From positions 3,720,001 through 3,784,000 of the forward strand of contig NZ_CP054923.1 in NCBI RefSeq assembly GCF_013364215.1: a stretch of 64,000 bases of DNA. The letters are read 5' to 3'. This document shows positions 7,083 through 30,723 of this stretch, one piece after another. The stretch comes from Verrucosispora sp. NA02020. Lineage in GTDB: Bacteria; Actinomycetota; Actinomycetes; Mycobacteriales; Micromonosporaceae. The notes beneath the pieces were generated by a model. That model saw nothing but the letters and a program-made list of their open reading frames with translations. It did no database searches and was not told where the DNA came from. A program made the translations under genes and the position numbers. Within the stretch, counting starts at the first letter, position 1. Every line of letters begins with the position of its first letter.

Positions 7083-9908
7083 TTATCCCGGCCCGGCCGC
7101 GGTCGGGGACCAGGGCCAGGGCACGTCGCGGAAGGCCGCCTCGACGAGCAGCGCCTCGACGCCGCGCAGGAACGGCGCGATCCGTTCCGCCGGGAAGTAG
7201 CGGGTGTCGGCGGTGACGACCAGTTCGACCGCGCCGGGCGCGTCGAGCACCTGGACCCGGCAGCGCCACGGGAACCGCTCCAACTCCGGCAGCCAGCGGA
7301 ACGCGCTGTCGCCGACCATCGCCCGCAGGGCGGTCTCGTCCGGGCCCGCCGCCGTCGGGTCGACGTCGCGGGCCAGCCGGGCGTCGTTGAGGTAGCAGTA
7401 CGCGGACAGGAAGGTCCGGTGGTCGTGGCCGAGGTCGGTGAAGGTGCGCTCCCACACGGCCGGGTCGTAGTAGGCGTGCCGGTAGGCGTCCAGCGCTCCC
7501 CGCCGGGCCCGGGACAGCAGGTCGGCGAAGCCGGGCCGGTCGGCCAGGTCGAGCCGACAGAGCCCGATCTGGTTGAGGGTGCCGACCGCGTCCTGGTGCC
7601 CAGGCTGGAAGCGGTTGCTGGCCATCACCACGATGCCGCAGGACTCCTGCCCGCCGTCGCCGGTCAGCCCGGCGGCGGTCGCCGCCAGCACGACGTTGGA
7701 GGTGCTGACGGCGTTGCGGGTCGCGATCAGGCCGGCCGCGTGGTGGACGGCGCGGGAGACCAGCGACCCACGCCGGTAACGGGGTGCCGGCGCGGCGCCG
7801 ACCGGGTCGGAGAGGTTCGCCGCCAGGCCGGGCAGCTGCCGCACCCAGTACGCCACCGCCCGCTCCGACCGTCGTCGTCCGGCGTCGCGCTCCCGCCCGG
7901 CGAGGTCGACCGACTGGAGGCCGACCGGCGTGTCCAGGGTGCCGTGCCGCAGGAGCCTGCGCAGGTCACGCAGCACGACGTCGGTGGCGTGGAAGTCGAC
8001 GGTGGCGTGGCTGAACACCAGCACGATCTGGCGTACCCGGTCGTCGACGGTGACCAGGGCGACCCGCAGCGGCCACTCGGCGACGTGGTCGAAGCGCGAC
8101 GCGCGCAGCCGGGCGGTCAGCTCCGCCGCGAGCGCGCGGCCGTCGGGGTCGTCCACCGGCCGGGGTACGGCGTGCACGCCGACGGGCAGCCGCCCGGTCG
8201 CCGCCATCTCCTGGTGCACCTCGTCGTCCCGGCGGCGGAACCGGGTGCGCAGCGATCCGTGCCGGGCGACCAGTGCGCCGAGGGCCCGCACCGCCTCGGG
8301 GACGGTCACCTCGGTCCGCGCCGACACGGCGAGCGTGCGGGGGAGACTCAGCACCCGGTACGCGGCGGGGGACTCGAACTCCTCCACGGTCCGCCACATG
8401 GCGCGTTGTCCCCAGGTCAGCGGCGCGCTGGCGGCCCGCCCGCCCGCGAAGTCCGCGTACGCCGTCTCCTCGGCGTGCCCGGCGCGGCGCGGGACCGGCC
8501 CGGCGGCGCCGGTGGACGTCGGTGACCAGGGCCATCGCACGTCGTCGAAGGCCGCCTCGACCAGCAACTCCTCCATGCCCCGCAGGAACGGCTCGACGGA
8601 GTCCATCGCGAGGTGCCGGGTGTCGACGGTGAGCGTGACGCCCACCGCGTCCGGCTCGTCCACGACGTGGGCCAGCAGGTGCCAGGAGGCCGCGTTCAGC
8701 CCGGCGGTCCAGGAGAAGTCACTCTGGGCGGTGGCCGCCCGCAACTCGTCCCGGGTCACCTCGGGCGGCTGGTCGAGGCCGCCGAGTGGCAGCCGGACGT
8801 CGTTGAAGTAGTGGTGCGGGTGGAACGCCGTCTCGTAGTCGACGCCCTGCTCCTCGAAGGCGTGCCGCAGCGCGGACGGCTGGTAGTACGCGTGCCGCAG
8901 GCCGTTCAGCGACGCCGCCCAGACCCGGCGCAGCAACTCGGCGAAGTCGGTGCACCCGGCCAGGTCCACCACGCAGAATCCGATCTGACCGAGGTTCGCC
9001 ACCGCCTGCGCGTACTCGGTGCGGAACCGGTTGTGCGACATCGGGAAGAGGCCGGACAGTTCGTGCCCGGAGGTGCGTACGGCCATCGCCTGGTAGCCGG
9101 CGAGCAGTGCGGCGGAGACGCTGACCCGATGTCGGGCGGCGACCAGCCGGGCCGCCCTGTCCATCGCGGAGGAGACCAGGACGCCCCGACGCAGGTGCGG
9201 CGTCAGCCCCGGCCCGGCCGGGACCAGCGGCTGCCGGGGGAGCCGGTCGAACTCCCGCTGCCAGTACGCCACCGCCCGCTGTGAGCGCCCCCGGTCGGGT
9301 CCCTGCTGGAGCCGGGCCACCTCCGCCGACTGCGGACCGGCCGGAGTGTGCAGGCCGCCGCGCAGCAGAAGCAACCGCAGGTCACGCAGCACGATCTCGA
9401 CCGCGTGGGCGTCCACCGTGGTGTGGCTGAACACCAGCACGATCTGGCGTACCCGATCGTCCACAGTCACCAGTGCGACCCGCAGCGGCCACTCGGCCGA
9501 ATGGTCGAACGCGACGTCGCCGAGCCGTTCGGCGGCCTGCCGTGCGGCCTGCGCACCGTCACCGGTGCCGGGATGGAGCAGCAGCGGGAACAGCCCGGCG
9601 GGGGCGACCTCCTGCCGGGACTCGCCGTCGACGACCGGGAGCCGGGTGCGCAGCGCGGAGTGCCGGCTGACCAGCGCACCCACCGCCCGGGTCGCGGTCG
9701 TCACGGTCACCCCGGCGCGGGGGGAGACCGGCACGGCCCGCCGCAGGTTGAGGAACCGGTGGTTGGAGCCGAACCGGGCGATCGAGCGCAGGAGGACCTG
9801 CTGAGCCCAGGTCGGCGGCGCCGTCCCGGCACCACCACCGGAGAACTCGGCGTAGCGCAGCGGTTCTGCCGCCCACTCGGCGGGGACCACCGTATCCGCG
9901 AATCGCAT
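7083..9908 (-). CDS. Tandem condensation-domain-like protein
   Basis: 941 residues made of two copies of an NRPS condensation-like domain with no adenylation or carrier domain. Each copy starts with a TWxQxxxxR-type motif, has RHxxLRTR, and carries a reduced HHxxxDG motif: SHTTVDA with His162/Asp166 and SHATVDF with His634/Asp638. The catalytic His and the structural Asp remain; the first His and the Gly are lost. Both copies end in LVEAAF and WPWSPT. The halves share long identical stretches, pointing to recent duplication. It is divergent to the NRPS genes and probably acylates or joins the peptide (inference). The start has only a weak ribosome site. Confidence 0.75.
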   Translation of the reverse strand: MRFADTVVPAEWAAEPLRYAEFSGGGAGTAPPTWAQQVLLRSIARFGSNHRFLNLRRAVPVSPRAGVTVTTATRAVGALVSRHSALRTRLPVVDGESRQEVAPAGLFPLLLHPGTGDGAQAARQAAERLGDVAFDHSAEWPLRVALVTVDDRVRQIVLVFSHTTVDAHAVEIVLRDLRLLLLRGGLHTPAGPQSAEVARLQQGPDRGRSQRAVAYWQREFDRLPRQPLVPAGPGLTPHLRRGVLVSSAMDRAARLVAARHRVSVSAALLAGYQAMAVRTSGHELSGLFPMSHNRFRTEYAQAVANLGQIGFCVVDLAGCTDFAELLRRVWAASLNGLRHAYYQPSALRHAFEEQGVDYETAFHPHHYFNDVRLPLGGLDQPPEVTRDELRAATAQSDFSWTAGLNAASWHLLAHVVDEPDAVGVTLTVDTRHLAMDSVEPFLRGMEELLVEAAFDDVRWPWSPTSTGAAGPVPRRAGHAEETAYADFAGGRAASAPLTWGQRAMWRTVEEFESPAAYRVLSLPRTLAVSARTEVTVPEAVRALGALVARHGSLRTRFRRRDDEVHQEMAATGRLPVGVHAVPRPVDDPDGRALAAELTARLRASRFDHVAEWPLRVALVTVDDRVRQIVLVFSHATVDFHATDVVLRDLRRLLRHGTLDTPVGLQSVDLAGRERDAGRRRSERAVAYWVRQLPGLAANLSDPVGAAPAPRYRRGSLVSRAVHHAAGLIATRNAVSTSNVVLAATAAGLTGDGGQESCGIVVMASNRFQPGHQDAVGTLNQIGLCRLDLADRPGFADLLSRARRGALDAYRHAYYDPAVWERTFTDLGHDHRTFLSAYCYLNDARLARDVDPTAAGPDETALRAMVGDSAFRWLPELERFPWRCRVQVLDAPGAVELVVTADTRYFPAERIAPFLRGVEALLVEAAFRDVPWPWSPTAAGPG

Positions 9909-9942
9909 TCCTGACGGTACGACGGTCCGTTCCGCTGCTGGA

Positions 9943-9954
9943 TCGATCGATCGA
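9943..9954. promoter_or_regulatory. Palindromic element in the divergent NRPS promoter region
   Basis: TCGATCGATCGA is a perfect 12-bp palindrome in the 137-bp gap between the two divergent biosynthetic genes, about 35 bp from one start and 90 bp from the other. It could be an operator or just a short GATC repeat. No pathway-specific regulator gene lies next to it. Confidence 0.25.
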
Positions 9955-10045
9955 GTCCTACACAGTGGACCGATCAGCCGATCCACCCTCTGGGAAGCGG
10001 GATGCAGACTACTGACTCCCGTCCGTCATCGGATTGAGGCATAGC

Positions 10046-13000
10046 GTGACGAACGTCGACGTGCCGGCCCGAGACACCACCGTCATCCCGACGGCGACTC
10101 CGCCCGCCGGAGCGCCCCGACTCTCCTTCGGCCAGGAACGGATCTGGTTCACCGAACAGCTCGTGCCCGGCACCGCCGCGTACCTCGTCCACTCGACCGT
10201 GCGGGTGCGTGGCCCGCTCGACGTCGAGCTGCTGCGGGCCGCCGTCGACGCGACCGCTGCCCGGCACGACAGCCTTCGCATGCGGTTCACCGAGAACGCC
10301 GACGGCGAGCCCGTCGTGCACGTCGCCCCCGAGGTACGGGTGCCGGTCACCGTGACCGCCGTGCCCGGTGAGGCCGAGGCCCGCGAGCTGGTGGCCGGCT
10401 CGGTCCGCACCCCGTTCGACCTCGGCGTCGCGCCCCTGCTGCGGGTGCTCGTCGTCCGGCTCGGCGACCAGGAGCACCTGGTGCATCTCGCCATGCACCA
10501 CATCGTCAGCGACGGCTGGTCGCTGACCCTGCTGCTCGACGAGATCGCCGCGACCTACGGCGCACTGCGCGACGGCACGCCACCGCCCCCGGCACCGGCC
10601 ACCGGCTACCTGGAGTACGCGGCCTGGCAGCGGGACCGTCTCGACGGACCGGCCACCGGGGACGGGTTCGCCTACTGGACCGGAGCACTGGCCGGCGTAC
10701 CCGCGCTGGAACTGACCACCGACCGGCCCCGCCCGCCGGTGCAGTCCTACGCCGGTGCGACCCACCGCTTCACCCTCGACGCCGACCTCACCGACGGACT
10801 GCGCCGGCTCAGCCGCGCCCACCGGGCCACCCTCTACATGACCCTGCTCACCGGCCTGCAGGCGGTGCTGTTCCGCTACAGCGGCCAACGGGACTTCGCC
10901 ATCGGCTCGCCGGTCGCCGGTCGGGTGGTGCCGGAGCTGGAGAACCTCGTCGGTCTCTTCGTCAACACCCTCGCCCTGCGCGCCGACCTCTCCCCGGTCG
11001 CCGCGACCGCCGACAGCGCCGCCGTCGAACCCAGCTTCGCGACCCTGCTGCGGCGCACCCGCACCACCGTCGTCCGCGCCCTGGCCCACCAGGAGATCCC
11101 GTTCGAACGCCTGGTCAAGGACCTGAACGTCGCCCGGGACGTGAGCCGCTCCCCGGTGTTCCAGGTGCTGTTCACCCTCCAGAACTTCGCGCCCGGCGGC
11201 ACCCGGTGGCCCGAGGACCTGCGCGCCGAGGGCGTCGGGACCGACGTGGCCAACGCCCGCTTCGACCTGTCGCTCTACGTCGGCGAGTCCGCCGACGGGC
11301 TGCGCGGCATGGTCGTCTACGACACCGACCTCTTCGACGCCGCCACCGTACGCCGGCTGACCGCAAGTCTCGCCACGCTGCTGCGCGCCGCCGTCGCCCG
11401 GCCGGACCTGCCCGTCGTCGACCTGGACCTGCTCGACGCGGACGAACGGGACCGGGTGCTGGCCCTGGGCCGACCCGAGCACGACGCGGTGGCCCGGGTC
11501 ACCGGCGCGGCGACCACCCTGGCCGAGCTGATCGGCCCGCACGTCGCCGCCACCCCCGACGCCCCGGCGGTGGTCCTCGGCCCGGACACGCTCACCTACC
11601 GGGAACTGGACCGGCGGGCCAACCAGCTCGCCCACTGGCTGCGCCGCCGGGGCGTCGGCCCGGACCGGCTGGTCGGGGTGCTGCTCGACCAGTCGGTCGA
11701 CCTGGCCGCGACGCTGCTCGGGGTGCTGCGGGCCGGTGGGGCGTACCTGCCGCTGGACCCGGAGCAGCCCCCCGCGCGGCGGGACCTGATGCTCGCCGAC
11801 GCCCGTCCGACCGTGGTGCTGACCAGCTCCGCCCTGCGTGACGGGCGGCCCGCCGAGGCGAACACGGTCGCCCTGGACGAGATCGCCGACGAGGTCGCGG
11901 CCCAGCCCGACACCGCGCCGGAGACCGGCACCACCGGCGAGCACCTCGCGTACGTCATCTACACCTCCGGCTCCACCGGCACCCCGAAGGGGGTCGCCGT
12001 GGCACACCGGCAGGTGCTGCGCTACCTCGACGGGGTGGCCGACCGGTTCGGGGTCGTCCCGGCCGCCCGGTACGGGCTGATGCAGTCGATGTCGTTCGAC
12101 TTCAGCGTCACCCTCTTCTATCTGGCGCTGGCCACCGGTGGCGCGGTGCACCTGCTGCCCCGCCGGTGTACCGGCGCGGAGCTCGCCGAGCGGCTGCGGA
12201 CCGCCCGCATCGACTACCTGAAGATCACACCGTCGCACCTGTGGGCGCTGACCGCCGACGCCGCACCGGGGGAGCTGCTGCCCGCCCGCGCGCTCGTGCT
12301 CGGTGGCGAGGCGTCCGACCTGGACCGGGTCGGCCCGCTCGCCGCCGCCGGTCCGGCCCGGGTCTTCAACCACTACGGCCCCACCGAGGCCACCGTCGGC
12401 GTCACCACCTACGAGGTCACCGCCGACGCGCCGACCAGCGGACCGGTGCCGATCGGCCGGCCCCTGCCGCACGCCCGGGTGTACGTGCTCGACGAGCGGA
12501 TGCGTCCGGTCCCGGTCGGCGTACCCGGTGAGGTGTACCTCGGCGGTGACCGGCTGGCGCGCGGCTACCTGAACCGGCCCGACCTGACCGGCGAGCGCTT
12601 CGTCCCCGACCCGTACGGTCCACCCGGCGCGCGTCTCTACCGCACCGGCGACCTGGGACGCTGGCGCGCCGACGGGCAGCTCGTCTTCCTCGGCCGCCGC
12701 GACCACCAGGTCAAGATCCGTGGCTACCGGGTCGAGCTCGGCGAGATCGAGGCCGCGCTGCGGGACTGCCCCGGGGTACGGCAGGCCGCGGTGCTGCTGC
12801 GCGACGAGCGGCTGGTGGCGTACCTGGAGGCGGCACCCGACGAGGCCGTGCCCGAGCCGGCCGCGCTGCGTCGGCGGCTCGCCGACCGGTTACCCGAGCA
12901 CATGGTGCCGAGCCGGTGGGTTGCCCTGGACCGGCTGCCGTTGCAGGAACACGGCAAGGTGGACCGGCGGGCCCTGCCCGAGCCCGTCGACGACGCCCCG

Positions 13001-15592
13001 ACCGGTGCGCGGGAGACGCCGACCGGGCCGGTCGAGACGCTGGTGGCCGACGTCTGGCGAGCCGTTCTCGGGGTGACCGAGGTCGGCGCCACCGACGACT
13101 TCTTCGAGCTGGGCGGGCACTCCCTGCTGGCCACCCAGGTGGTGGCCCGGCTCCGTCGGGAACTGCCCGACGTGGTCGGCACGGACGCGCCGCCGGTCAG
13201 CGTGATGGACCTGTTCCGCCACCGCACCGTACGCGAGCTGGCCCTGCTGGTCGCCGGGGACGGCACGGACCGCGGCGGGCTGCTGCACGAACTGACCCCG
13301 CCGACGCCCGCCGGCACCCGGATCGCCACCCTGGTCTGCGTCCCGTACGGCGGCGGCAGCGCGGTGGTGTACCAACCGCTGGCCGACGCCCTGCCGCCCG
13401 GGTACCGGCTGCTGTCGGTGGCCGTACCCGGGCACGACATCGGCCTCGCCGACGACCCGGCACCCATCGCGGAGGTCGCCGCCGACGTCGTCGCGGAGAT
13501 CCTGCACCGGGTCACCGGGCCGCTGATCCTGTATGGACACTGCGGCCCCGGCGGGGCGCTGGCCGTGGAGGTCGCCCGCCGGCTGGAGGCCGCCGGCCGG
13601 GACCTGGAGGCGGTGTACCTGGGCGCGGTCTTCCCGTTCGCCCGTCCCGTCGGCGGCCTGCTCGGCCCGCTGCTGCGACTGCGGTTGGCCGAGCGGCTGC
13701 GCAGCGACCGGATCTACCGCACCTGGTTGCAGGCGCAGGGCACCTCCATCGGGTCACTGGCACCGGACGAGGTCGCGTTCCTGATCCGCGCCATGCGGCA
13801 CGACGCCGAGGTCTCCGAGGAGTACTTCACCGAGCTGATGCGGCGACGGGTCGGCCCGCTGCGGGCACCGATCGTCTCCGTGGTCGGCGAGCGTGACCGC
13901 AGCACCGACTTCCACGAGGAGCGCTACCGCGAGTGGCACTTCCTCAGCGACCGCACCGCGCTCGCCGTGATCGACGAGGCCGGACACTACTTCCTCAAGT
14001 ACCGGGCGGCCGAGCTGGCCGAGATCGTCACCGACGTACACCGGCACCTCGCCGCGCCGCCGCCGTCCGCCGCGCCGGTCCGCGCCGAGCCGGGCCCGCC
14101 GTCCGTCGCCTCGCCGCGTCCGGACGGCACGCCGGCCGCCTGGCAGCTCGCGGCCGTCTCCCAGCGGGGACCGGACGGACCCTCGGGCGGGAGCGACGGT
14201 ACGGCCACCGCGCCGCCACCGAGCATGCGCCGCTTCGGTCTGGTCGCCGCCGGGCAGATCGTCTCCGGCATGGGGACGGCGCTGACCACGTTCGCCGTGC
14301 CACTGTGGATCTACACGCAGACCGGGTCGCTCGCCCGGTTCGCGCTCTTCGCGGTGCTCGCGCTGATGCCCGGCCTGCTCGTCGCACCGCTGGCCGGCGC
14401 GGTGATCGACCGGTTCAGCCGGCGACGCGTCCTGCTCGGCGCCTGCATGGCCGCCGGGGGCGGCAACGCGGCGATGGCGGTGCTGGTGCTGACCGACGTC
14501 GCCCAGGTGTGGCACTTCTACCCCTTCACCGCCTGGCTGTCGGTGGCACTGGCGTTCCAGCGGCTCGCGTTCGTCTCGGCGGTGCCGCAGCTCGTGCCGA
14601 AGCGCTTTCTCGGCCACGCGAACGGTCTCGCCCAGACCGCTGTCGGCCTCACCCAGTTCACCGTCCCGCTGATCGCCGTGGCCCTGCTCCAGGCCGTCGG
14701 GCTGCGCGGCATCCTGCTCATCGACGTGGTGTCATACCTCTTCGCGATCGGTGTGCTGGCCGTGGTGAGGTTCCCGCGTACGCTCGCCCTGCGCCGCCGC
14801 GAGAGCATCGGTGCGGAGATCGTCGCCGGGCTGCGGTACGCGCTGCGCCGCCGGGAGTTCCGCGCCATGCTGGCGTTCTTCGCCGCGCTGAACTTCTTCC
14901 TCTTCCCGGTGCTGTTCCTGCTCTCCCCGCTGGTGCTCGGCTTCGCCGACCTGAACGAGGTGGCGCAGATCGCGCTGACCGGCGGGGTCGGCGCCGCCAC
15001 CGGCGGTCTGGTGATGCTGCTCTGGGGCGGTCCCCGCAAGCGTCGGATGCGAGCGGTGCTGCTGGGCACGCTCGGCATCGCGGTGGCCGCCGTGGTCACC
15101 GGGCTGCGGCCGAACCTGCTGGTCATCGGCGCGGGCGCGTTCGGCATGTACCTCGCGCTCGCCATCGTCAACGGCGTCTACAACACGATCATCCAGACCA
15201 AGGTGCCGCCCCGGGTGCACGGGCGGGTCTTCGCGCTCAACCAGATGGTGGCGCAGTCCACCATGCCGCTGGGCTGGGGCCTGGTCGCCCCGTACGCCGC
15301 CCGGGTGACCGAGCCGATGCTGCTGGCCGACGGCGTGCTGGCCGGCACGGTCGGCGCGGTGATCGGGGTCGGGCCGGGGCGCGGACACGGGCTGCTCTAC
15401 GTGCTGTTCGGGCTCTGCATCGCGGTGACGGCGCTGGTGTCGCTGGCCACGCCGGTGCTGTCCCGCTTCGACGACGAGGTGCCCGACGCGCCCCCGGACG
15501 ACCTGGTCGGCATCGAGGAGCGCCGGGCGCGGTCGGCCGCCGGCGGGGACGAGCGGGTACCGGCCGCCGCGACCGGCGGAAAGGCGGACTGA
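10046..15592 (+). CDS. NRPS fused to MFS transporter: C-A-PCP-TE-MFS
   Basis: 1848 residues. Condensation domain about 20-440 with HHIVSDG at 151-157. Adenylation domain about 485-975 with YTSGSTGTPKG at 639-649. Carrier domain with LGGHSLL, Ser1026. Thioesterase about 1080-1340 with GHCGPGG (Cys1166 where Ser is usual) and His1314. From about 1394 a full MFS exporter with about 12 helices (RRFGLVAAGQIVSGMGTAL starts it). Aligned by eye to GrsA, the specificity residues read DFTKVGHVGK, close to the Asp code DLTKVGHIGK. One TTA codon lies at 12890-12892. The GTG start follows GAGG; a TTG at 10034 is possible. NRPS/MFS fusions are known in actinomycetes. Confidence 0.9.
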   Translation: MTNVDVPARDTTVIPTATPPAGAPRLSFGQERIWFTEQLVPGTAAYLVHSTVRVRGPLDVELLRAAVDATAARHDSLRMRFTENADGEPVVHVAPEVRVPVTVTAVPGEAEARELVAGSVRTPFDLGVAPLLRVLVVRLGDQEHLVHLAMHHIVSDGWSLTLLLDEIAATYGALRDGTPPPPAPATGYLEYAAWQRDRLDGPATGDGFAYWTGALAGVPALELTTDRPRPPVQSYAGATHRFTLDADLTDGLRRLSRAHRATLYMTLLTGLQAVLFRYSGQRDFAIGSPVAGRVVPELENLVGLFVNTLALRADLSPVAATADSAAVEPSFATLLRRTRTTVVRALAHQEIPFERLVKDLNVARDVSRSPVFQVLFTLQNFAPGGTRWPEDLRAEGVGTDVANARFDLSLYVGESADGLRGMVVYDTDLFDAATVRRLTASLATLLRAAVARPDLPVVDLDLLDADERDRVLALGRPEHDAVARVTGAATTLAELIGPHVAATPDAPAVVLGPDTLTYRELDRRANQLAHWLRRRGVGPDRLVGVLLDQSVDLAATLLGVLRAGGAYLPLDPEQPPARRDLMLADARPTVVLTSSALRDGRPAEANTVALDEIADEVAAQPDTAPETGTTGEHLAYVIYTSGSTGTPKGVAVAHRQVLRYLDGVADRFGVVPAARYGLMQSMSFDFSVTLFYLALATGGAVHLLPRRCTGAELAERLRTARIDYLKITPSHLWALTADAAPGELLPARALVLGGEASDLDRVGPLAAAGPARVFNHYGPTEATVGVTTYEVTADAPTSGPVPIGRPLPHARVYVLDERMRPVPVGVPGEVYLGGDRLARGYLNRPDLTGERFVPDPYGPPGARLYRTGDLGRWRADGQLVFLGRRDHQVKIRGYRVELGEIEAALRDCPGVRQAAVLLRDERLVAYLEAAPDEAVPEPAALRRRLADRLPEHMVPSRWVALDRLPLQEHGKVDRRALPEPVDDAPTGARETPTGPVETLVADVWRAVLGVTEVGATDDFFELGGHSLLATQVVARLRRELPDVVGTDAPPVSVMDLFRHRTVRELALLVAGDGTDRGGLLHELTPPTPAGTRIATLVCVPYGGGSAVVYQPLADALPPGYRLLSVAVPGHDIGLADDPAPIAEVAADVVAEILHRVTGPLILYGHCGPGGALAVEVARRLEAAGRDLEAVYLGAVFPFARPVGGLLGPLLRLRLAERLRSDRIYRTWLQAQGTSIGSLAPDEVAFLIRAMRHDAEVSEEYFTELMRRRVGPLRAPIVSVVGERDRSTDFHEERYREWHFLSDRTALAVIDEAGHYFLKYRAAELAEIVTDVHRHLAAPPPSAAPVRAEPGPPSVASPRPDGTPAAWQLAAVSQRGPDGPSGGSDGTATAPPPSMRRFGLVAAGQIVSGMGTALTTFAVPLWIYTQTGSLARFALFAVLALMPGLLVAPLAGAVIDRFSRRRVLLGACMAAGGGNAAMAVLVLTDVAQVWHFYPFTAWLSVALAFQRLAFVSAVPQLVPKRFLGHANGLAQTAVGLTQFTVPLIAVALLQAVGLRGILLIDVVSYLFAIGVLAVVRFPRTLALRRRESIGAEIVAGLRYALRRREFRAMLAFFAALNFFLFPVLFLLSPLVLGFADLNEVAQIALTGGVGAATGGLVMLLWGGPRKRRMRAVLLGTLGIAVAAVVTGLRPNLLVIGAGAFGMYLALAIVNGVYNTIIQTKVPPRVHGRVFALNQMVAQSTMPLGWGLVAPYAARVTEPMLLADGVLAGTVGAVIGVGPGRGHGLLYVLFGLCIAVTALVSLATPVLSRFDDEVPDAPPDDLVGIEERRARSAAGGDERVPAAATGGKAD

Positions 15593-15593
15593 G

Positions 15594-17096
15594 GTGAGTA
15601 CGGCGTCGCCGGACCGGGCCACCCCCCGTACCGTGCCCGAGCTGCTGGACTGGCGTACCGCCCTGCACCCCGAGCGGGTCGCGGTCGAGGTGCACGGGGT
15701 GGCCGAGCTGACCTTCGCCGACTGGTCCGCCGGGGCGGGGGCCGTCGCCGCCGCCCTGTCCCGGCGCGGCCTGCGTCGTGGCGACCGCGTCGGCCTCTAC
15801 TTCGGCGCCCGGGACTGGACCTGGTTCGCCGTCGCGTACGTCGGGGTGCTGCGCGCCGGTGGCGTCGCCGTGCCACTCTCCGACCGGCTCGCCGCCGGAC
15901 AGCTCGGACACGCCCTGGACCACTGCGCGGCCACCGCCGTGCTGCACGGCGACGACACCCCCGCCCCGCCGGTGCCGTCCGGCCTGCCGGTCTGGACCTG
16001 CGCCGAGCTGCTGGCCGAGCCACACCGCGACGGCGAGTCGGTCGCCCGTCCCGGTGACCTCGCGCAGATCCTCTACACCTCGGGCACCACCGGACGTCCC
16101 AAGGGGGTCGCCGCCAGCCACGCCAACCTCACCGCCGGTGCCCCACAGCATCCACGCCGGCTGGCCCTGGCCCACTCGGACCGGTTCCTGCACGCCTTCG
16201 CGATCGGCACCAACGCCGGGCAGACCATGCTGCTCAACGCGGTGACCGCGAAGGCCGCCGCACTCACCCTGCCCCGGTTCACCCCGGCCCGGTTCGCCCG
16301 ACTGGTCGAGGCCCCCGGGACCGGCACCGTCTTCGTCGTCCCGTCGATCGCCGTCGAGCTGCTCGACTCCGGTGCCCTGCGCGGGCGGGACACCAGCGGC
16401 GTACACCTGATCGGCTCCACCGCCGCGTTCCTCGCGCCGGCGGTCGCGGCCCGGCTCGCCGAGACGTTCCCGCAGGCCACCATCGTCAACTACTACACCT
16501 CCACCGAGGCGGCACCGGCCCAGACCACCATGATCTGGGACCCGTCCCGGCGGGACGCGGTCGGTCGACCGGTCGGCGGCCGGCTCATGGTCGCCGACGC
16601 CGACGGTAGGCCGCTGCCCGCCGGCACGACCGGTGACGTCTGGCTGCGGGCGCCCTTCCCCCGCGCCTACTTCCGCGACGAGGCGGCCAACCGGGCCACC
16701 TTCCGCGACGGATGGGTCCGCATGGGGGATGTCGGCCGGGTCGACGCCGACGGCTACCTGTACCTCACCGACCGGCACCAGGACGTGATCAAGACCGGCG
16801 CGTTCAAGGTCTCCACCCTGGAGGTCGAGGCGGCGCTGCACGACCATCCCCTGGTCGCCCAGGTCGCCGTCGTCGGTGTCCCGCATCCGGTGCTCGGCAC
16901 CGCCGTGGCCGCCGCCGTCGTGCCCCGGCCGCAGGCCGCCCCGGACGGCCTGTCCCTGCCCGCGCTGCGCGGATTCCTCGCCGACCGACTGGCCGACTAC
17001 CAGCTGCCCGCCCGGCTCCTGCTCCTCGACGAGCTGCCCCGCAACGAGGGCGGCAAGGTGCTCAAGCGGCAGCTCACCGACCTCTTCGAGAACTGA
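15594..17096 (+). CDS. Stand-alone acid-activating enzyme (AMP-forming ligase)
   Basis: 500 residues of the ANL superfamily, close to fatty-acid or aryl CoA/ACP ligases rather than amino-acid adenylation domains. Core motif LYTSGTTGRPKG at about 160-171, YYTSTEA in the middle, RMGDVGRVDADGYLYLTDR as hinge region and the catalytic Lys near the C-terminus in NEGGKVLKRQ. It has no carrier domain. It begins 1 nt after the stop of the NRPS-MFS gene, so translation should be coupled. It probably activates a carboxylic acid that caps the peptide, loading it on the free carrier protein of this locus (inference). The acid cannot be read from the sequence. Confidence 0.85.
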   Translation: MSTASPDRATPRTVPELLDWRTALHPERVAVEVHGVAELTFADWSAGAGAVAAALSRRGLRRGDRVGLYFGARDWTWFAVAYVGVLRAGGVAVPLSDRLAAGQLGHALDHCAATAVLHGDDTPAPPVPSGLPVWTCAELLAEPHRDGESVARPGDLAQILYTSGTTGRPKGVAASHANLTAGAPQHPRRLALAHSDRFLHAFAIGTNAGQTMLLNAVTAKAAALTLPRFTPARFARLVEAPGTGTVFVVPSIAVELLDSGALRGRDTSGVHLIGSTAAFLAPAVAARLAETFPQATIVNYYTSTEAAPAQTTMIWDPSRRDAVGRPVGGRLMVADADGRPLPAGTTGDVWLRAPFPRAYFRDEAANRATFRDGWVRMGDVGRVDADGYLYLTDRHQDVIKTGAFKVSTLEVEAALHDHPLVAQVAVVGVPHPVLGTAVAAAVVPRPQAAPDGLSLPALRGFLADRLADYQLPARLLLLDELPRNEGGKVLKRQLTDLFEN

Positions 17097-17125
17097 CCAC
17101 CACCAGCACAACCCAGGGAGCACAT

Positions 17126-20100
17126 GTGGGCACCGCCGAGGCGACCTCCGCACAGCACGCCGTCTGGTTCACCGAGCGGGCCGGGGTCGCCGGCACGGCC
17201 TACCACATGGCGGTCGGCGTACGGTTCGCCGCCGGACTCGACCGTCGGGCCCTCGTCGCGGCCTGCGCCTCGGTGACCGACCGGCATCCGATCCTCGCGG
17301 CCAGGATCGTCGGCGACGACGACGGCACCCCGCGCCTGGCACCGGCCGACACCCGTCCGACGGTCGGCTTCGCGGAACTGACCGACGCCCGGGTGACCGA
17401 GGAGATCGCCCGGACGTACGACCTGACGACCGGACCACTGGCCCGGTTCACCCTGCTCACCGACGCCGACGACACGCACCTGCTGCTCGTCACCGCACAC
17501 CATCTGGTCTTCGACGGCATGTCGAAGGACATCCTGCTCCGGGACCTGGCCGCCGCGTACGCCGCCGCCCGTGACGGTGCCACCGTGGACCCCGGGCCCC
17601 GACCCGACGAGTACGCCGGCCTCGCCACCGCCGAACAGCAACGCGTCGCCGTCGACCTGCCCGCCGCCCGCGACCACTGGCGGCGGCACTGGTCCGGGCC
17701 CGGTGAGGTGGTCCTGCCCGGCCTGCGGCGGCTGCCCGCCGCTGCGGAACCCGGCGTCGCCGTCCCCGTCGACCTGCCCAGCGATCTGGTCGACGGCGTC
17801 GACCGGGCCGCGCGGTCGCTCGGGGTGACCCGCTTCGAACTGCTCCTCGCGGTGCTGCACGCGCTGCTCGCCCGCTACGGCAACCGGGACACCCCGGTCG
17901 GGGTGGCGCTCTCCACCCGTACCCCCGACCAGGCCGACCGGATCGGACTGTTCGTCAACGAACTGCCCGTCGCCGCCGACCCGGCCGGCGGGACGTTCCG
18001 CGCACACGCGCACACCGTCCGGGCCCGGCTGCGCGAGGTGTACCCGTACCGCGCGGTGCCGTTGGCCCAGGCCGTGCCCGGCCTGCGTCCCGCACCGGCG
18101 TTGACCCCGGTCAGCATCGGCTACCGGCGGCGCGGCAGCGCACCGGTCTTCCCCGGGGTGGAGAGCGAGGTCGACTGGACGCTGTTCTGCGGTGCCGCCC
18201 GCAACGCGCTGCACGTCCAGGTGGTGGACGCGCCCACCGGGCTCACCGTCAGCCTCCAGCACAGTCCGGCGGCCATCGACACCGCCGCCGTACGCCGTAT
18301 CGGCGGGCACCTGCGCACCATGCTGGCCGCCGTGGTCGCCGACCCCGATCAGCCGGTGGCGGAGATGCCGCTGCTGCCCGCCGACGAGTTCGCACAGGTC
18401 ACCCGCGTCTGGAACGACACCGCCCGGACGTACCCGGTCGACGCCACCGTGCCGGCCCTGTTCGCCGCCCGGGTCGCCGCGGACCCGGACGCGGCGGCCG
18501 TGGTCGACGGTGACCGGACGCTGAGCTACGCCCAGCTCGACACCGCCGCCACCCGGCTCTGCGTCCTGCTGCGGCAGCGGGACGTCGGGCCCGGTTCGCT
18601 CGTCGCGGTCGCGCTGGACCGGTCGTGGGAGGCGGTGGTGACCATGCTCGCGGTGTGGCGCTGCGGGGCCGCCTACCTGCCGGTCGACCCCGGCCACCCG
18701 CCGGCCCGCCAGCAGGCCGTACTCGCCGACGCCACGCCCACGCTGGTGGTCACCGGTGCCGCCGTGCCGGACCCCGCCCGGCCCACGCTCACCCTCGACC
18801 GGAGCGCCCTGCTCGACGGCCCGGTCCCGGCCGCGCCCGACCTCTCGCCGACCGCCGCCGACCTCGCCTACGTGCTCCACACCTCCGGGTCGACCGGGCA
18901 CCCGAAGGGTGTGGCGGTGCGCCACGGCTCGCTGACCAACCTGCTGCTCGGCGTCCGCGACCTGCTGGAGAGCGGTCCGACGCACCGGTGGCTGCACCTG
19001 ACCTCGCCGTCGTTCGACATCTCCACGGTGGAGGTCTTCCTGCCGCTGGTCACCGGCGGCACGGTGGTCGTCGCCTCGGCCGTCAGCGCCCTGGACGGCG
19101 CCGGTGTCCTGCGGCTGATCCGCGCCGCCGGAGTCACCCACGCCCAGGCCACACCGTCCGGCTGGCGGGTGCTGCTGGAGGCCGGTCTCGGCGACCGGAC
19201 CGGGTCGGCGGACGGGGACGCCCCGCTGGTCGCGGTCACCGGCGGGGAGGCACTGCCGGTCACCCTCGCCCGCGAGCTGCGGTCCCGCACCGCGCGCCTG
19301 ATCAACGGGTACGGTCCGACGGAGGCGACCGTGTACGCGACCATGGCGGAGATCCCGGTCGACCCCGACGAGGTGACCATCGGCCGGCCGCTGCCCAACG
19401 TTCGGGCGTACCTGCTGGACGAGGCGGGGCGGCCCACGCCGGTCGGGCTCCCCGGCGAGCTGTGGCTGGGCGGCGCCGGGGTGGCCGCCGGCTACCGGGG
19501 ACGTGACGACCTGACCGCCGAGCGGTTCGGTCCGGATCCGTTCGGGGTGACCGGTGACCGGCTCTACCGCACCGGCGACCGCTGCCGGTGGCTGCCGGAC
19601 GGGCGGATCGAGTTCCTCGGCCGCGCCGACGACCAGGTCAAGATCCGGGGACACCGGATCGAGTTGGGCGAGATCGAGACGCGACTGCTGGAGCACCCCG
19701 AGGTCGCCGCTGCGGCCACGGTCCTGCGGCGCGACGCCGACGAGCCCCGCCTCGTCGCGTACGTGGTGCCCCGGCCGGGTGCCGCTCCGGAGCCGGCCGG
19801 CTTGCGTCGACACCTGGCGTCGAGTCTGCCGACGGCGGTGCTGCCCACCGACTACGTGACGCTCGACCGGTTGCCGCTGAACCCGAGCGGCAAGGTCGAC
19901 CGGGCCGCCCTGCCCGCCCCGGCACCCCGCGACGCCGTCACTGGCTCGCGCGCTTCAGGGCCCGAGGCACCCGGCGGCGCGCCGGCCGACTCACCCGGCG
20001 GCGCGGTGGCCGGTGCGCCCGGCGGCGTGGACGTCGACGCTGGTGACGACCCGGTGGTGGCGCAGCTCCGGCTGATCTGGCAGGAGGTGCTGCGAATCCC

Positions 20101-20278
20101 CGACATCGGCGTGCACGAGGACCTCTTCGACCTCGGCGGGCACTCGCTGACGGTGACCCGGATCAGCGGCCGGATCCAGCAGCGGCTCGGGGTCGAGGTG
20201 CCGCTCGACGCCTTCTTCGACACCCCGACCATCGCCGAGATCGCCGACATCGTGCGGCAGTCCGGGAAGGAGTTCTGA
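17126..20278 (+). CDS. NRPS module: C-A-PCP
   Basis: 1050 residues from a GTG preceded by AGGGAG. Condensation domain with HHLVFDG at 125-131; adenylation domain with LHTSGSTGHPKG at about 584-595 (His in place of the usual Tyr); a Gly/Ala/Pro-rich linker; carrier domain with LGGHSLT, Ser1007. There is no termination domain. By eye the specificity residues read DIVQVGGVYK. This matches no standard code well; the nearest I know is the Gly type (DILQLGLIWK). It probably works before the NRPS-MFS module, joining the acyl starter to its amino acid and passing the chain to the Asp-type module (inference). Its stop overlaps the carrier-protein start. Confidence 0.9.
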   Translation: MGTAEATSAQHAVWFTERAGVAGTAYHMAVGVRFAAGLDRRALVAACASVTDRHPILAARIVGDDDGTPRLAPADTRPTVGFAELTDARVTEEIARTYDLTTGPLARFTLLTDADDTHLLLVTAHHLVFDGMSKDILLRDLAAAYAAARDGATVDPGPRPDEYAGLATAEQQRVAVDLPAARDHWRRHWSGPGEVVLPGLRRLPAAAEPGVAVPVDLPSDLVDGVDRAARSLGVTRFELLLAVLHALLARYGNRDTPVGVALSTRTPDQADRIGLFVNELPVAADPAGGTFRAHAHTVRARLREVYPYRAVPLAQAVPGLRPAPALTPVSIGYRRRGSAPVFPGVESEVDWTLFCGAARNALHVQVVDAPTGLTVSLQHSPAAIDTAAVRRIGGHLRTMLAAVVADPDQPVAEMPLLPADEFAQVTRVWNDTARTYPVDATVPALFAARVAADPDAAAVVDGDRTLSYAQLDTAATRLCVLLRQRDVGPGSLVAVALDRSWEAVVTMLAVWRCGAAYLPVDPGHPPARQQAVLADATPTLVVTGAAVPDPARPTLTLDRSALLDGPVPAAPDLSPTAADLAYVLHTSGSTGHPKGVAVRHGSLTNLLLGVRDLLESGPTHRWLHLTSPSFDISTVEVFLPLVTGGTVVVASAVSALDGAGVLRLIRAAGVTHAQATPSGWRVLLEAGLGDRTGSADGDAPLVAVTGGEALPVTLARELRSRTARLINGYGPTEATVYATMAEIPVDPDEVTIGRPLPNVRAYLLDEAGRPTPVGLPGELWLGGAGVAAGYRGRDDLTAERFGPDPFGVTGDRLYRTGDRCRWLPDGRIEFLGRADDQVKIRGHRIELGEIETRLLEHPEVAAAATVLRRDADEPRLVAYVVPRPGAAPEPAGLRRHLASSLPTAVLPTDYVTLDRLPLNPSGKVDRAALPAPAPRDAVTGSRASGPEAPGGAPADSPGGAVAGAPGGVDVDAGDDPVVAQLRLIWQEVLRIPDIGVHEDLFDLGGHSLTVTRISGRIQQRLGVEVPLDAFFDTPTIAEIADIVRQSGKEF

Positions 20279-20529
20279 TGACGGCCGACCCCGGACTGCG
20301 GGCACGGATCGCCCAGATGGTCAGCGAGGCCACCGGAGGGGAGGTCGAGCCGGCCGACCTCCTCGCCGGCGGGTCGATGATCGCGTTGGGCGTCGACTCC
20401 CTGGGACTGCTGCGTCTGGTCGACGCGATCGAGTCGGAGTACGGCGTCGAGGTCGAGCTGACCGGCGCCGGTCGTCGACTCGACACCCTGGACGACCTCG
20501 TGGCGATGCTGGCCGCCGCCGAGCGGTGA
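20278..20529 (+). CDS. Free acyl/peptidyl carrier protein
   Basis: 83 residues. The phosphopantetheine site is Ser41 in LGVDSLGLL. The rest is a typical four-helix carrier protein, ending in DTLDDLVAMLAA. It overlaps the upstream NRPS stop by 1 nt (TGATG), so it is the last gene of the operon. With the stand-alone ligase it probably forms a loading unit that presents the acyl starter to the first condensation domain (inference). Confidence 0.85.
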   Translation: MTADPGLRARIAQMVSEATGGEVEPADLLAGGSMIALGVDSLGLLRLVDAIESEYGVEVELTGAGRRLDTLDDLVAMLAAAER

Positions 20530-22250: not shown

Positions 22251-24356
22251 TCAGCTCGCCGTGCAGGTCGGTGTCGGTGCGCTGGGCGTGCCGGTGGTGG
22301 CGCCGAGGAAGCCGAAGGTGGTGCTGGCCCCGGCGGCCAGTGTGCCGTTGTAGCTGACGTTGCGCGCGGTGACCGCCGAGCCCTGGCTGGTGACGGTCGC
22401 GTTCCACGCCTGGCTGATCGTCTGGCCACCGGCGAACGTCCAGGTCACCGTCCAGCCGCTGATCGCCCGGGTGCCGGCGGTGACCCGCACCTCGCCCTGG
22501 AATCCGCCGGTCCACTGGCTGGTCACCGAGTACGTGGCGGTGCAGCCACCACCACCGGGCGGAGGCGTGGTCGGTGGGGGAGTGGTGGGGGGCGGCGTGG
22601 TCGGCGGGGGAGTCGTCGGCGGGGGCATGGTGATGGTGCCGCCCCACCCGGCGGTGGAGTCCAGCCAGGCCGCCCGGCGCAGCATCCAGTCCCGCATGAC
22701 CTGCACCTGGCCCTGCCAGGTGGGCGCGGTCGGCGTGACGAAGAAGCTGACCATCCGCGTGGTCAGGTTGGGCCAGCGCTGGAAGTTGCGCTGGGCGCCG
22801 TTGGCCAGGGGCGCGCTCAACGCGTTGATCCGGGCCTGCATCGACGCGTCGGAGAGCAGCCCCCGGCGCAGGGTCTGCCACCGCTGCCGTACCTCGTTGA
22901 CGAAGGCCGGATCGCGCAGCAACTGGGTGAACCAGTCGTTCGCCACCGGCTGGCGGACCTGCTGGTGCTGCCACCCGGCGGTCTGGTCGTTGGCGAAGAA
23001 GCCGCCCACGCTGAAGCTGAGGTCGTAGTCCCAGAGCGGACCGGCGAAGATCTTGGTGTCCCGGTCCTTGTAGAAGTAGGCACTGCGGACGTACGAGTCC
23101 ATCTCGCGGCTCAGTTCGTTGATGATGAGCTGGTCGATGAAGGAGCCCACGTCGATGTACGCCCGGTAGCCGCTGACCGGGTCGGCGAAGTTCGGGGCCC
23201 GCAGCACGTTGTGGAACTCCTGGATGTGGTTGCGCAGCCAGTCCCGTTGCTCCGGCTGCAACGACGACGGGTCGGCCACCTCCAGGTAGTTCCAGCAGGT
23301 CGCGGCCGGGCCGGTGCACGGCAGGATCGGCTCCTCGGCGGCCATCCACTCGAACTTCCAGATGTACCCGCCGGTGATCCTCGGCAGCGTCCGGTCGTCG
23401 GCACGCAACTGCTTGAGGTCGAGCCGGTTCTTGGAGTTCTTGATCGTCTCGACGATCATGTAGACGCCCATGTAGTCGTCGGCCCCGACCGGCCCGGCGT
23501 CGGTGTTGAGATAGAACTCGGCGAAGGCGTAGCGCGGGGCGGGCAGGCCCATCTCCCGACCGAGGTCGTAGACGAACGCCTCCCGGATCAGCGCCTTGTC
23601 GGTGAACGGCCCGCGCAGCACCCAGTCCGAGTCGGCGGGCATGCCCAGCACCGGATAGTCCGCGTCGTCGTCATCGTTGTCCCAGAACTCCAGCCGGAAT
23701 GGCGTCTTCTCGAACGTCGCCGAGGACTGACCGCGCAACCGGAACCCGGCCCGGGTGGCGACGGTGGGCGCGGCGGCCAGCGAGGTGGTGCCGCCGCCCG
23801 GCTCGAAGACCATCGTGGCGGCGTCGATGTACTCCCGGTCCGGCCGCCCGGCGCCGTACGAGTCGATCAGGACCACCGGCAGGTCGTGGGCGGTGCTGGT
23901 GTTCTGCGCGACGTACATGGCGGTGCCCGGCGCGCCGGAGGCGGTCTGCCCGACGAAGGCCTGGGCCCGCAGTTGGGTGGTCCGGGTGAAGCGCAGCGCG
24001 GTGCCGGAGTAGAGCGGCGACTGTGCGGTGGGCAGGTTCCCGTCGGTGGTGTATCGGATCTGCGCGCCGCTGACGGTGGTGCTCAACTCCACCGTCACCG
24101 CGCCCTGGAAGGTGCCGCTGGGCACCGAGAAGCCGATGTCGCCGACCAGGTCGTCGGCGGCCTCGGAGGCGGCGGCGGTGGTCCGGGTGGCGGAGCCGGC
24201 GACCGCTTCGGAGCCGGCGAGTGTTTCGGTGCCGGCGGTCGGTTCGGCGCCGGCGGGCGACGGTGACGGGACGAGCAACCCGGCGACGAGTACGGCGACG
24301 GCTGCGATCGCGGCGGTGCGCAGCGGTGCCGCCGCGGTGCGGACGGTCAGACGCAC
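22251..24356 (-). CDS. Secreted CotH-kinase protein with CBM2
   Basis: 701 residues. Signal peptide about 1-40; a chitobiase-C-terminal-like beta domain (IRYTTDGNLPTAQSPLYSG) about 75-150; CotH kinase domain about 170-560; a Thr/Pro linker (PPPTT repeated four to five times); and a C-terminal CBM2 of about 100 residues starting GCTATYSVTSQW. CotH proteins are atypical kinases that phosphorylate surface proteins; the CBM2 should hold this one on cellulose, xylan or chitin. The GTG start has AGGAGG 5 nt upstream and lies inside the end of the VTC gene (10-bp overlap), so the genes are coupled. Confidence 0.88.
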   Translation of the reverse strand: MRLTVRTAAAPLRTAAIAAVAVLVAGLLVPSPSPAGAEPTAGTETLAGSEAVAGSATRTTAAASEAADDLVGDIGFSVPSGTFQGAVTVELSTTVSGAQIRYTTDGNLPTAQSPLYSGTALRFTRTTQLRAQAFVGQTASGAPGTAMYVAQNTSTAHDLPVVLIDSYGAGRPDREYIDAATMVFEPGGGTTSLAAAPTVATRAGFRLRGQSSATFEKTPFRLEFWDNDDDDADYPVLGMPADSDWVLRGPFTDKALIREAFVYDLGREMGLPAPRYAFAEFYLNTDAGPVGADDYMGVYMIVETIKNSKNRLDLKQLRADDRTLPRITGGYIWKFEWMAAEEPILPCTGPAATCWNYLEVADPSSLQPEQRDWLRNHIQEFHNVLRAPNFADPVSGYRAYIDVGSFIDQLIINELSREMDSYVRSAYFYKDRDTKIFAGPLWDYDLSFSVGGFFANDQTAGWQHQQVRQPVANDWFTQLLRDPAFVNEVRQRWQTLRRGLLSDASMQARINALSAPLANGAQRNFQRWPNLTTRMVSFFVTPTAPTWQGQVQVMRDWMLRRAAWLDSTAGWGGTITMPPPTTPPPTTPPPTTPPPTTPPPGGGGCTATYSVTSQWTGGFQGEVRVTAGTRAISGWTVTWTFAGGQTISQAWNATVTSQGSAVTARNVSYNGTLAAGASTTFGFLGATTGTPSAPTPTCTAS

Positions 24357-25183
24357 GATGCCTCCTGAACGGATCGGTGGGGGACGGTGGTCGGTGCGGT
24401 GTCGACCGGTGCGGTGCCGCCCTGGAAGTGCCGCCGCAGCGTGCGTCGCCACGGTGAGTCCGGCAGTTCCGGACGGAGGGCGGCCAGACCGGTGGCGTAC
24501 TTGGAGATGCGGACGGGGCGCAGCCCTCGACGCCAGAGCAGCCGATCCGCGTGCGTGGCGGCGGAGCCGGTCTTGGTCTCGACCACGGCCAGTTCGGGCA
24601 GGCAGAGGGCGAGGTCGCCGTCCTGCCAGGTCAGGCCGGTGTCGATGGTGACCCGGCTGGCGGAGGACGGCAGCAGCAGCGTTGCGCGGCGGTAGCTGGT
24701 GACCAGGACCGGTTCCAGACTGCTGCCGGCGGCGGTGGGTGCGACCGCCTCACGGACCAGCGCCTCGTCCACGAAGGCGCGGCCGGGGCCGACGGTGTTC
24801 CGGTCCTGCGGGTCGTACGGCAGTCGGTGCTTGGTGATGCTGCCGCGTGCTCCGCTGATCTTCACTTCGAGCCAGCACTGGGCGGAGTCGAGGTAGGTGC
24901 GGGTCCGCACCTTGAACCGTCGCCGTCGTCGGTAGGCCGCGCAGTGGTAGCTGGCCAACCGTGGGGTGTCGAAGTAGACCGACTCGTAGCGGAAACTGCG
25001 TTCCCCGTCGATCTCCAGCACCCGCGCGTCCGTGGTGAGCTGATCCAGCAGGTCGGGCAGCGCGTGGACCGGGACGACGTACTTGCGGTCCACCCTGGTC
25101 TGTAGGGCGGCCAGCCCGAGGACGTCGGCCAGCCCGACCGGGGTCATCGCCGACAGCATCGGGCTGGCGGGCGACCCGGTCAC
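24347..25183 (-). CDS. VTC-domain protein (polyphosphate polymerase type)
   Basis: 278 residues, a CYTH-like tunnel-fold VTC domain. Visible family features are RVDRKYVV near residue 30, the strand SVYFDTPRLASYHCAAYRRRRRFKVRTRTY, WLEVKISGARGSITKHR, SRVTIDTGLTW and AVVETKTGSA. Basic residues and the conserved Glu/Lys line the tunnel that in yeast Vtc4 makes polyphosphate from ATP. In bacteria VTC proteins are often next to CotH and DUF4956 genes. Here it overlaps both neighbours (GTGA with the upstream gene, 10 bp with CotH). It is cytosolic. Whether it makes polyphosphate here is unproven. Confidence 0.88.
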   Translation of the reverse strand: MTGSPASPMLSAMTPVGLADVLGLAALQTRVDRKYVVPVHALPDLLDQLTTDARVLEIDGERSFRYESVYFDTPRLASYHCAAYRRRRRFKVRTRTYLDSAQCWLEVKISGARGSITKHRLPYDPQDRNTVGPGRAFVDEALVREAVAPTAAGSSLEPVLVTSYRRATLLLPSSASRVTIDTGLTWQDGDLALCLPELAVVETKTGSAATHADRLLWRRGLRPVRISKYATGLAALRPELPDSPWRRTLRRHFQGGTAPVDTAPTTVPHRSVQEASCV

Positions 25184-26404: not shown

Positions 26405-27862
<1,458 letters not shown>

Positions 27863-27894
27863 CGACGAGCCGTACGGCCGACCTCCACCACCAC

Positions 27895-27933
27895 GCGAGC
27901 GCCCGTCCCCGAGACTTGGGGGCGGGCGCTCGC
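27895..27933. terminator. Hairpin terminator after xylanase
   Basis: Arms 27895-27910 and 27918-27933 form a 16-bp stem (one G-U pair) with a 7-nt loop between the convergent xylanase and GH43 genes. Confidence 0.85.
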
Positions 27934-27944
27934 CCGTGCCCCGG

Positions 27945-29501: not shown

Positions 29502-29576
29502 CTCGGGGTCACCCTTCGTCGTCTGGGCGAAGTAGCCATCCCGGTCGATGCTATGCGCCGCCGGGTGGCGCGCCGG

Positions 29577-30425: not shown

Positions 30426-30583
30426 GACTGCTCCCGTCGTCGTCGAGCCGGGCGGTGGACGTGTTCCGCCACGTCATCGGCGGTGTCGGTGATGAACCTA
30501 GCGGCTGTCGCCGGGGCGGTGGTGCGCTTGGCGAGTTTCGTCGCCGGTCGTCCGACTTTCATGGCTGCCATCGAAAGTTGTCG

Positions 30584-30613
30584 TTGACCCCAACGGTTAA
30601 CACTCTTTAAGAT
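30584..30613 (+). promoter_or_regulatory. Promoter of the chitinase gene
   Basis: TTGACC at 30584-30589 and TAAGAT at 30608-30613 are 18 bp apart, about 110 bp upstream of the chitinase start. I see no copy of the typical Streptomyces chitinase direct repeat. The rest of the gap 30426-30723 shows no gene. Confidence 0.6.
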
Positions 30614-30723
30614 TCTGCTGCCTCGAGGAAACCACCCTGTCCACCCGTACGCTCGTCCGGCGCCGACGACCATCGGCGCCGGACGGCGGCACGGCGCCGT
30701 GATCCGCACCGGGAAGGCCCTCG

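Follow-up and report, generated by a model that had tools for sequence, protein, structure and literature searches.

The 64,000-nucleotide stretch of Verrucosispora sp. NA02020 DNA analysed here (the window) contains a gene in which a nonribosomal peptide synthetase (NRPS) module, a thioesterase (TE) with a cysteine nucleophile and a major facilitator superfamily (MFS) transporter domain are fused, and this NRPS-TE-MFS fusion with Cys belongs to a large, widespread actinomycete family and is not an oddity. We tentatively favor, at somewhat short of even confidence, the reading that the TE could carry out chain release on a short acyl-peptide assembly line, that release could be non-hydrolytic and probably proceeds by ring closure through a side chain, and that the product could be exported by the fused MFS domain. 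The exporter-fused Cys TE design recurs in many related bacteria, and Cys TEs with the layout of ObiF and SulM are already known. The gene and its parts are as follows, with residues numbered from the TTG start.

10034..15592, forward strand: NRPS-MFS fusion gene, 1852 amino acids from TTG 10034 (possible GTG start at 10046), with condensation (C), adenylation (A), peptidyl carrier protein (PCP), TE and MFS domains in this order
10121..11452, forward strand: C domain with the HHIVSDG motif intact at residue 155 (Pfam Condensation 30-473, E 5.2e-98)
11543..12958, forward strand: A domain of the Asp/Asn type (Pfam AMP-binding 504-846, AMP-binding_C 904-975; code DFTKVGHVG (+K))
13043..13246, forward strand: PCP with GGHSL (Pfam PP-binding 1004-1071)
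13274..14050, forward strand: TE domain with Cys nucleophile GHCGPGG, Asp after beta7 and an elbow one residue longer (Pfam Thioesterase 1099-1199, best stretch)
13541..13543, forward strand: codon of the predicted catalytic Cys1170 (motif GHCGPGG)
13541..13561, forward strand: extra residue directly after the nucleophile (GHCGxG, from the sequence)
13895..13897, forward strand: codon of the predicted catalytic Asp1288 at position II (alignment to ObiF1)
13985..13987, forward strand: codon of the predicted catalytic His1318 (read from the sequence)
14234..15592, forward strand: MFS transporter domain behind the TE (MFS_1, 1405-1746, E 7.5e-25; MFS_3, E 1.4e-17), a series of hydrophobic segments

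The initial annotation had placed a TE with a Cys nucleophile (GHCGPGG, Cys1166) and a retained His1314 inside an NRPS-MFS fusion, behind an Asp-type module, and all of this holds: the TE lies at 13274-14050 of a single open reading frame (ORF) of 1852 residues, the terminal A code agrees with an Asp-type module, and the two residues are Cys1170 and His1318 from TTG 10034, the earlier numbers being 4 lower because they were counted from GTG 10046. The catalytic triad is expected to be Cys1170, Asp1288 and His1318. An alignment with ObiF and SulM, which had been called for, showed a shared nucleophile, a shared Asp position after beta7 and, after beta6, a small residue where the other Asp site lies. 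SulM and ObiF are described as pairing Cys with an Asp after beta7, in contrast to almost all other NRPS TEs of known structure (PMC11298585). Strand numbers in the ObiF paper are one lower, so that beta7 is its beta6, and its authors propose that the combination of Cys with this Asp and a small residue favors nucleophiles other than water in the release step (PMC6668435).

This layout is strongly conserved among the 212 distinct MFS-fused TEs collected, window included. The nucleophile is Cys in 204 and Ser in 8, while the position-II Asp after beta7, the catalytic-site His and the His preceding the nucleophile occur in 212/212. In a tree of 58 MFS-fused rows, 2 changes suffice for the nucleophile column, whereas the median for 250 columns is 14.5. 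By alignment to ObiF1 and the SulM TE, the site of ObiF1 Gly1173 is Ala in 116 members, including the window, and Gly in 96. Two of the 212 (L146, L147) have an Asp four residues beyond this site, which by our own count we take to be the position of ObiF1 Asp1177; an Ala variant of that residue had activity equal to wild type (PMC6668435). The elbow is one residue longer (GHCG-x-G, against GHC-x-G in ObiF1, the SulM TE and RifR) in 177/212, comprising 169 Cys and all 8 Ser members, and takes the short form in the remaining 35. We know of no described TE with such an elbow insertion, other families not having been searched for one.

In the genome collection, 164 relatives were confirmed and the best 80 kept; within these 80, the closest named relatives (L005-L022) were Micromonospora species and one Micromonosporaceae record, with TE identities of 86-92%. 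Since TE and MFS share one open frame in 80/80 relatives, a frameshift or chance origin of the fusion was ruled out. The window genome (7.28 Mb) contains the TE-MFS arrangement once, with three weaker TE matches elsewhere, and the MFS domain had no solved relative at E 0.001. TE matches at E 1e-20, some without MFS, were found in 30/394 genomes of the class; relatives occurred at 1e-40 in 96/151 sampled genomes of the genus of the window (30, including the window genome, at at least 84% identity), and 59/150 sampled genomes of another actinomycete family contained relatives, with up to 7 copies per genome. Removal of identical-core copies, of TEs of 70 bits or less and of L001 (the window itself, counted once) left 229 distinct TEs, 212 of which have an MFS domain behind them in the examined frame. 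The sample favors the window TE's own kind because relatives were collected by similarity to it. For gene neighborhoods, 84 regions were hand-picked for diversity from the genus and other-family samples, of which 80 were used (2 ending at a contig end); locus-gene score thresholds were set by hand, and 6/80 loci are without a code because the table by terminal code was deduplicated. Full-text literature searches yielded no recognized paper on bacterial NRPS-TE-MFS fusions, which is no proof of absence because most subscription papers were outside their coverage; nor did they yield a product or a characterized homologue of this enzyme family.

Among solved proteins, both search modes placed ObiF1 nearest to the window TE. 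A single-sequence search gave ObiF1 (6n8e) at E 3.6e-24, 6vap, which we take to be a type II TE, at 4.1e-17, RifR at 4e-11 and the SulM TE at 1.1e-9, and a profile search gave ObiF1 as the top solved relative (E 2e-35), followed by 6vap (4.9e-22), the SulM TE (8.6e-16) and RifR (1.2e-13). Among the profile matches up to E 0.01, AB3403 (4zxh, 2.7e-4) was the only further TE whose name shows it to be embedded in an NRPS; the remainder of the 20 profile matches were type II, fatty-acid or polyketide synthase thioesterases, or unnamed. In two trees, one of 77/151 rows and a later one of 79 rows (71/229 TEs and 8 comparators), the MFS-fused TEs held together (support 100/97 and 99/97). A 100/99 branch united them with ObiF1, the SulM TE, whose own branch is very long, and other TEs without MFS, separately from the type II TEs and from two NRPS TEs with a Ser nucleophile from the same genome. 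The tree that the initial annotation had proposed thus yields the joint branch with ObiF1 and the SulM TE and leaves the rival grouping with type II TEs standing at a p-AU (approximately unbiased test) of 0.217, so that the affinity of MFS-fused TEs to ObiF1 and the SulM TE rather than to type II TEs is suggestive only. As separate observations, three genomes of one taxonomic family (L150, L151, L152) carry a Cys TE (WGHC-GGAA) behind a Ser-code module (DVWHFSLVD) without MFS, with ObiF1 again the closest solved relative of the L150 TE, and a related clade from seven genomes (L107-L110, L112, L113, L149) has a Ser nucleophile (WGHS) behind a module with code DIWQSTADD.

To read the terminal-module codes, A domains were aligned to that of the window, in which the positions had first been set after the GrsA layout. 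The Asp/Asn code DFTKxGHxG was found in 86/212 members, the Ser code DVWHxSLxD in 67/212, the Cys code (DLYNxSLIW-type) in 12/212 and a basic code (DTED) in 7/212; the last reads DTED in the smaller alignments and by eye, its position being shifted (DTEE/DTEA) in the larger one. Codes that we take to be Orn-like, Thr and Gly-like occurred in 7/212, 2/212 and 4/212 (DMPQVGLVW in 3, DILQFGLVW in 1). Further codes were DLPKVAEVG (10/212), D[FL]TKIAH (6/212), DFLKxASVA (3/212) and two single unassigned codes, DVRNTGIMD and DAMSLGAVI (2/212), and 6/212 were unread. The meanings of the Asp/Asn, Ser, Cys, Gly and Arg type codes follow PMC12283262, which gives DLTKVGHVGK for both Asp and Asn and reports that various sequences of the Asp/Asn class accept beta-OH-Asp/Asn; none of the code strings sought was found in the A-domain review PMC11253843. 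With Asp/Asn, Ser or Cys as the terminal residue, the side chain could close a ring.

The upstream modules add to this picture. Gly-like and basic codes occur together in 26/80 loci by our own count, and in L041 and L046 the order Gly, basic, Ser is read in one frame; extending this order to other loci by inference, the chain made by many clusters may be acyl-Gly-(basic)-Ser, -Cys or -Asp. From its codes, the window would spell acyl-(Gly-like)-Asp/Asn; in Microtetraspora-type clusters, the Asp module is the sole one in the stretch examined. The 8 Ser-nucleophile members comprise the 7 basic-coded ones and L254 (DAMSLGAVI), and the tree places them in two separate Cys-to-Ser changes, the L043-type within a Ser-/Cys-coded branch and L254 beside the Cys-nucleophile L253. 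In both switches (2/2) the terminal code departs from the Asp/Ser/Cys set. These natural Ser members, from two events, offer an attractive parallel to ObiF1 C1146S, which gave hydrolyzed acid as its sole product (PMC6668435).

The fusion gene lies in a compact cluster with a divergent C protein, an AMP ligase, a C-A-PCP protein and a free carrier protein.

7083..9986, reverse strand: two diverged condensation domains, 967 amino acids (Pfam Condensation, 2 stretches; SHTTVDA and SHATVDF replace HHxxxDG)
15594..17096, forward strand: stand-alone acyl-AMP ligase, presumed starter activator (Pfam AMP-binding)
17102..20278, forward strand: second NRPS, C-A-PCP, code DIVQVGGVY (Pfam; start approximate)
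20278..20529, forward strand: free-standing carrier protein, 83 amino acids (Pfam PP-binding, E 6.5e-08)

The nearest solved proteins to the AMP ligase are oxalyl-, malonyl- and fatty-acyl-CoA ligases, and its relatives score above threshold in 43/80 loci, each of up to about 20 kb. The scanned neighbors included no hydroxylase or sulfotransferase (the reverse-strand ORFs 828-2387 and 22251-24452 lay outside the scan). Genes for the E1 alpha and E1 beta subunits of a 2-oxoacid dehydrogenase adjoin the NRPS-MFS gene in 22/80 loci (L026, L070 and L081 among them), joined in 16 loci by an E2 family, and perhaps supply a branched acyl starter. The neighbor families c2, c4 and c5, iron-transporter-like by length, proved to be parts of this dehydrogenase, and an iron-siderophore locus was dismissed. 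A DMFA2_C-domain protein (N,N-dimethylformamidase beta-like) adjoins the cluster in 14/80 loci, including L034, L048, L049, L068, L071 and L075. Elsewhere in the window, a glycoside hydrolase group (26510-32103; GH10, GH43 and GH18 with a ricin-B lectin domain) is unrelated to the TE.

Transfer of the acyl chain from the PCP to the nucleophilic Cys, followed by release, is established chemistry. In the pathway that we envisage, the AMP ligase would load an acyl starter onto the free carrier protein, the C-A-PCP protein, whose code we read as Gly-like, would add a Gly-like residue, and the module of the fusion protein would add Asp or Asn. Cys1170 would then take over the acyl-dipeptide from the carrier, binding it as a thioester. 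As the initial annotation had suggested for the release step (ring, imide or transfer), we infer an unusual, non-hydrolytic release in which the terminal residue would most likely attack through its own side chain, with a small added acceptor as the second choice. Across the family, the ring would follow from the last residue, a beta-lactone from Ser, a beta-thiolactone from Cys and an anhydride or succinimide from Asp/Asn, so that the window product would be an anhydride (Asp) or a succinimide (Asn). The fusion to an MFS domain points to export of the product where it is released: the transporter domain would take it up as it is made, possibly by direct hand-over. A literal beta-lactone or beta-lactam, as in the obafluorin and sulfazecin reactions, is unlikely in the window because of the Asp/Asn terminal code and the lack of a hydroxylase or sulfotransferase among the scanned neighbors, a beta-lactone requiring beta-hydroxy-Asp.

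A broader proposition is that, in one exporter-fused Cys TE family, the last residue decides which reactive end group is made (a beta-lactone with Ser, a beta-thiolactone with Cys, an anhydride with Asp or a succinimide with Asn), that this group is handed directly to the MFS domain of the same protein, and that branches with an unsuitable last residue reverted to Ser and became hydrolases; we consider this rather improbable.

Several points weigh against side-chain ring closure. To our knowledge, an Asp anhydride would be unprecedented as an NRPS product. Four of the 212 members, all with Cys, have terminal codes that we read as Gly-like and hence offer no side-chain nucleophile, by which a rule that such a nucleophile always goes with Cys was rejected. 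With 2 independent events behind it, the link between nucleophile and code is not significant (sign test p 0.5), and forcing the MFS-fused TEs together with type II TEs lowers the likelihood by 16.6, which the test does not reject. Type II TEs, which are hydrolytic, share the position-II Asp (PMC11298585). The support comes from architecture, residues, conservation, profile closeness and codes, not from catalysis.

Some of these points lend weight to the possibility, somewhat unlikely in our judgment though the best placed of the alternatives, that the Cys TE is an ordinary hydrolase whose linear N-acyl-peptide acid is exported by the MFS domain, Cys being a lineage trait without special chemistry. 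The Asp common to type II hydrolases and the unrejected type II grouping would fit such an enzyme, as would the scanned neighbors free of a hydroxylase, and for the four Gly-like-coded Cys members only hydrolysis or transfer is conceivable. Yet Cys is kept in 204/212 with two changes on the tree, though Ser is the usual nucleophile, and ObiF, SulM and BulbE are reported to lose ring closure upon Cys-to-Ser replacement, ObiF1 and BulbE then yielding the acid (PMC6668435, PMC11536411).

Transfer of the acyl-peptide to a separate small nucleophile, such as an amine, alcohol, sugar or glycerol, possibly aided by the diverged free-standing condensation protein, would account for the Gly-like terminal codes too, and we regard it as rather improbable. 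Relatives of that protein score above threshold in 44/80 loci, a few of them perhaps ordinary C domains, and the solved structure closest to the window protein is 4znm ('C-domain type II peptide synthetase', E 9.4e-14), a type II C domain that stands alone. However, such C proteins can act alone and do not require the TE, and the 20 neighbor proteins scanned revealed no obvious shared gene for making an acceptor.

EntF-like oligomerization and cyclization, giving a Ser-linked trilactone and, for the Cys and Asp branches, its thio- and other analogues, is very improbable and was set aside as the leading explanation because the triad differs: the Ser code in 67/212 terminal modules, a match to the EntF model NF007605 in an NCBIfam scan, far under its cut-off, and MFS_3-type exporters that presumably resemble the enterobactin exporter family speak for it, but Asp lies after beta7 in 212/212 and Cys is present in 204, no EntF chain fell within E 0.01 of the profile, no catechol genes were seen among the scanned neighbors, and an Asp module is incapable of forming such an ester chain.

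Returning to side-chain ring closure, its confirmation would open a large untouched source of covalent inhibitors, whereas hydrolysis would mean that strained rings can no longer be mined for by the rule of Cys with a position-II Asp. The release question can be tested directly on natural Cys and Ser members, whose last residues differ.

The Cys NRPS thioesterases named in the accessible literature are ObiF, SulM, BulbE and AB3403, and four-membered rings are closed by the two among them that have the present triad layout, ObiF and SulM. The earlier link between Cys TEs and strained rings is partly supported, the layout resembling that of ObiF and SulM, but Cys alone is not diagnostic. In the BulbE TE, Cys is paired with Asp after beta6; this enzyme closes the 15-atom indolylamide macrocycle of bulbiferamide, Cys being needed for the ring, and its Cys-to-Ser variant lost ring closure and formed the hydrolyzed acid (PMC11536411); AB3403 likewise combines Cys with Asp after beta6 (PMC11298585). 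For the TEs of ObiF, SulM and BulbE alike, Cys-to-Ser replacement is reported to abolish ring closure. EntF-type TEs are more distant, having a Ser nucleophile and Asp after beta6, neither of which occurs in the window TE. Type II TEs (RifR, SrfA-TEII and, as we read it, 6vap) share the fold and the position-II Asp and are among the next-best profile matches, but they stand alone and use Ser, whereas the window TE is embedded between PCP and MFS in the 1852-residue ORF. The SulM TE (sulfazecin, beta-lactam; 8w2c, 8w2d) shares the Cys nucleophile and the Asp after beta7; it differs in its Gln-Cys-Asn motif, diaminopropionate code and sulfotransferase, against His-Cys-Gly, DFTKVGHVG and none among the scanned neighbors in the window, and a beta-lactam was rejected on these three grounds. 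The closest parallel is the ObiF1 TE (obafluorin, beta-lactone; 6n8e), the best solved relative, which shares the Cys in GHC, the Asp after beta7, the His, the His before the nucleophile, the small residue where EntF has Asp and the C-A-PCP-TE order. ObiF nevertheless has a terminal beta-hydroxy aromatic amino acid and an MbtH-like domain behind the TE, while the window protein has an Asp/Asn code, an MFS domain in that place, an elbow one residue longer and no fused aryl-acid loading domain.

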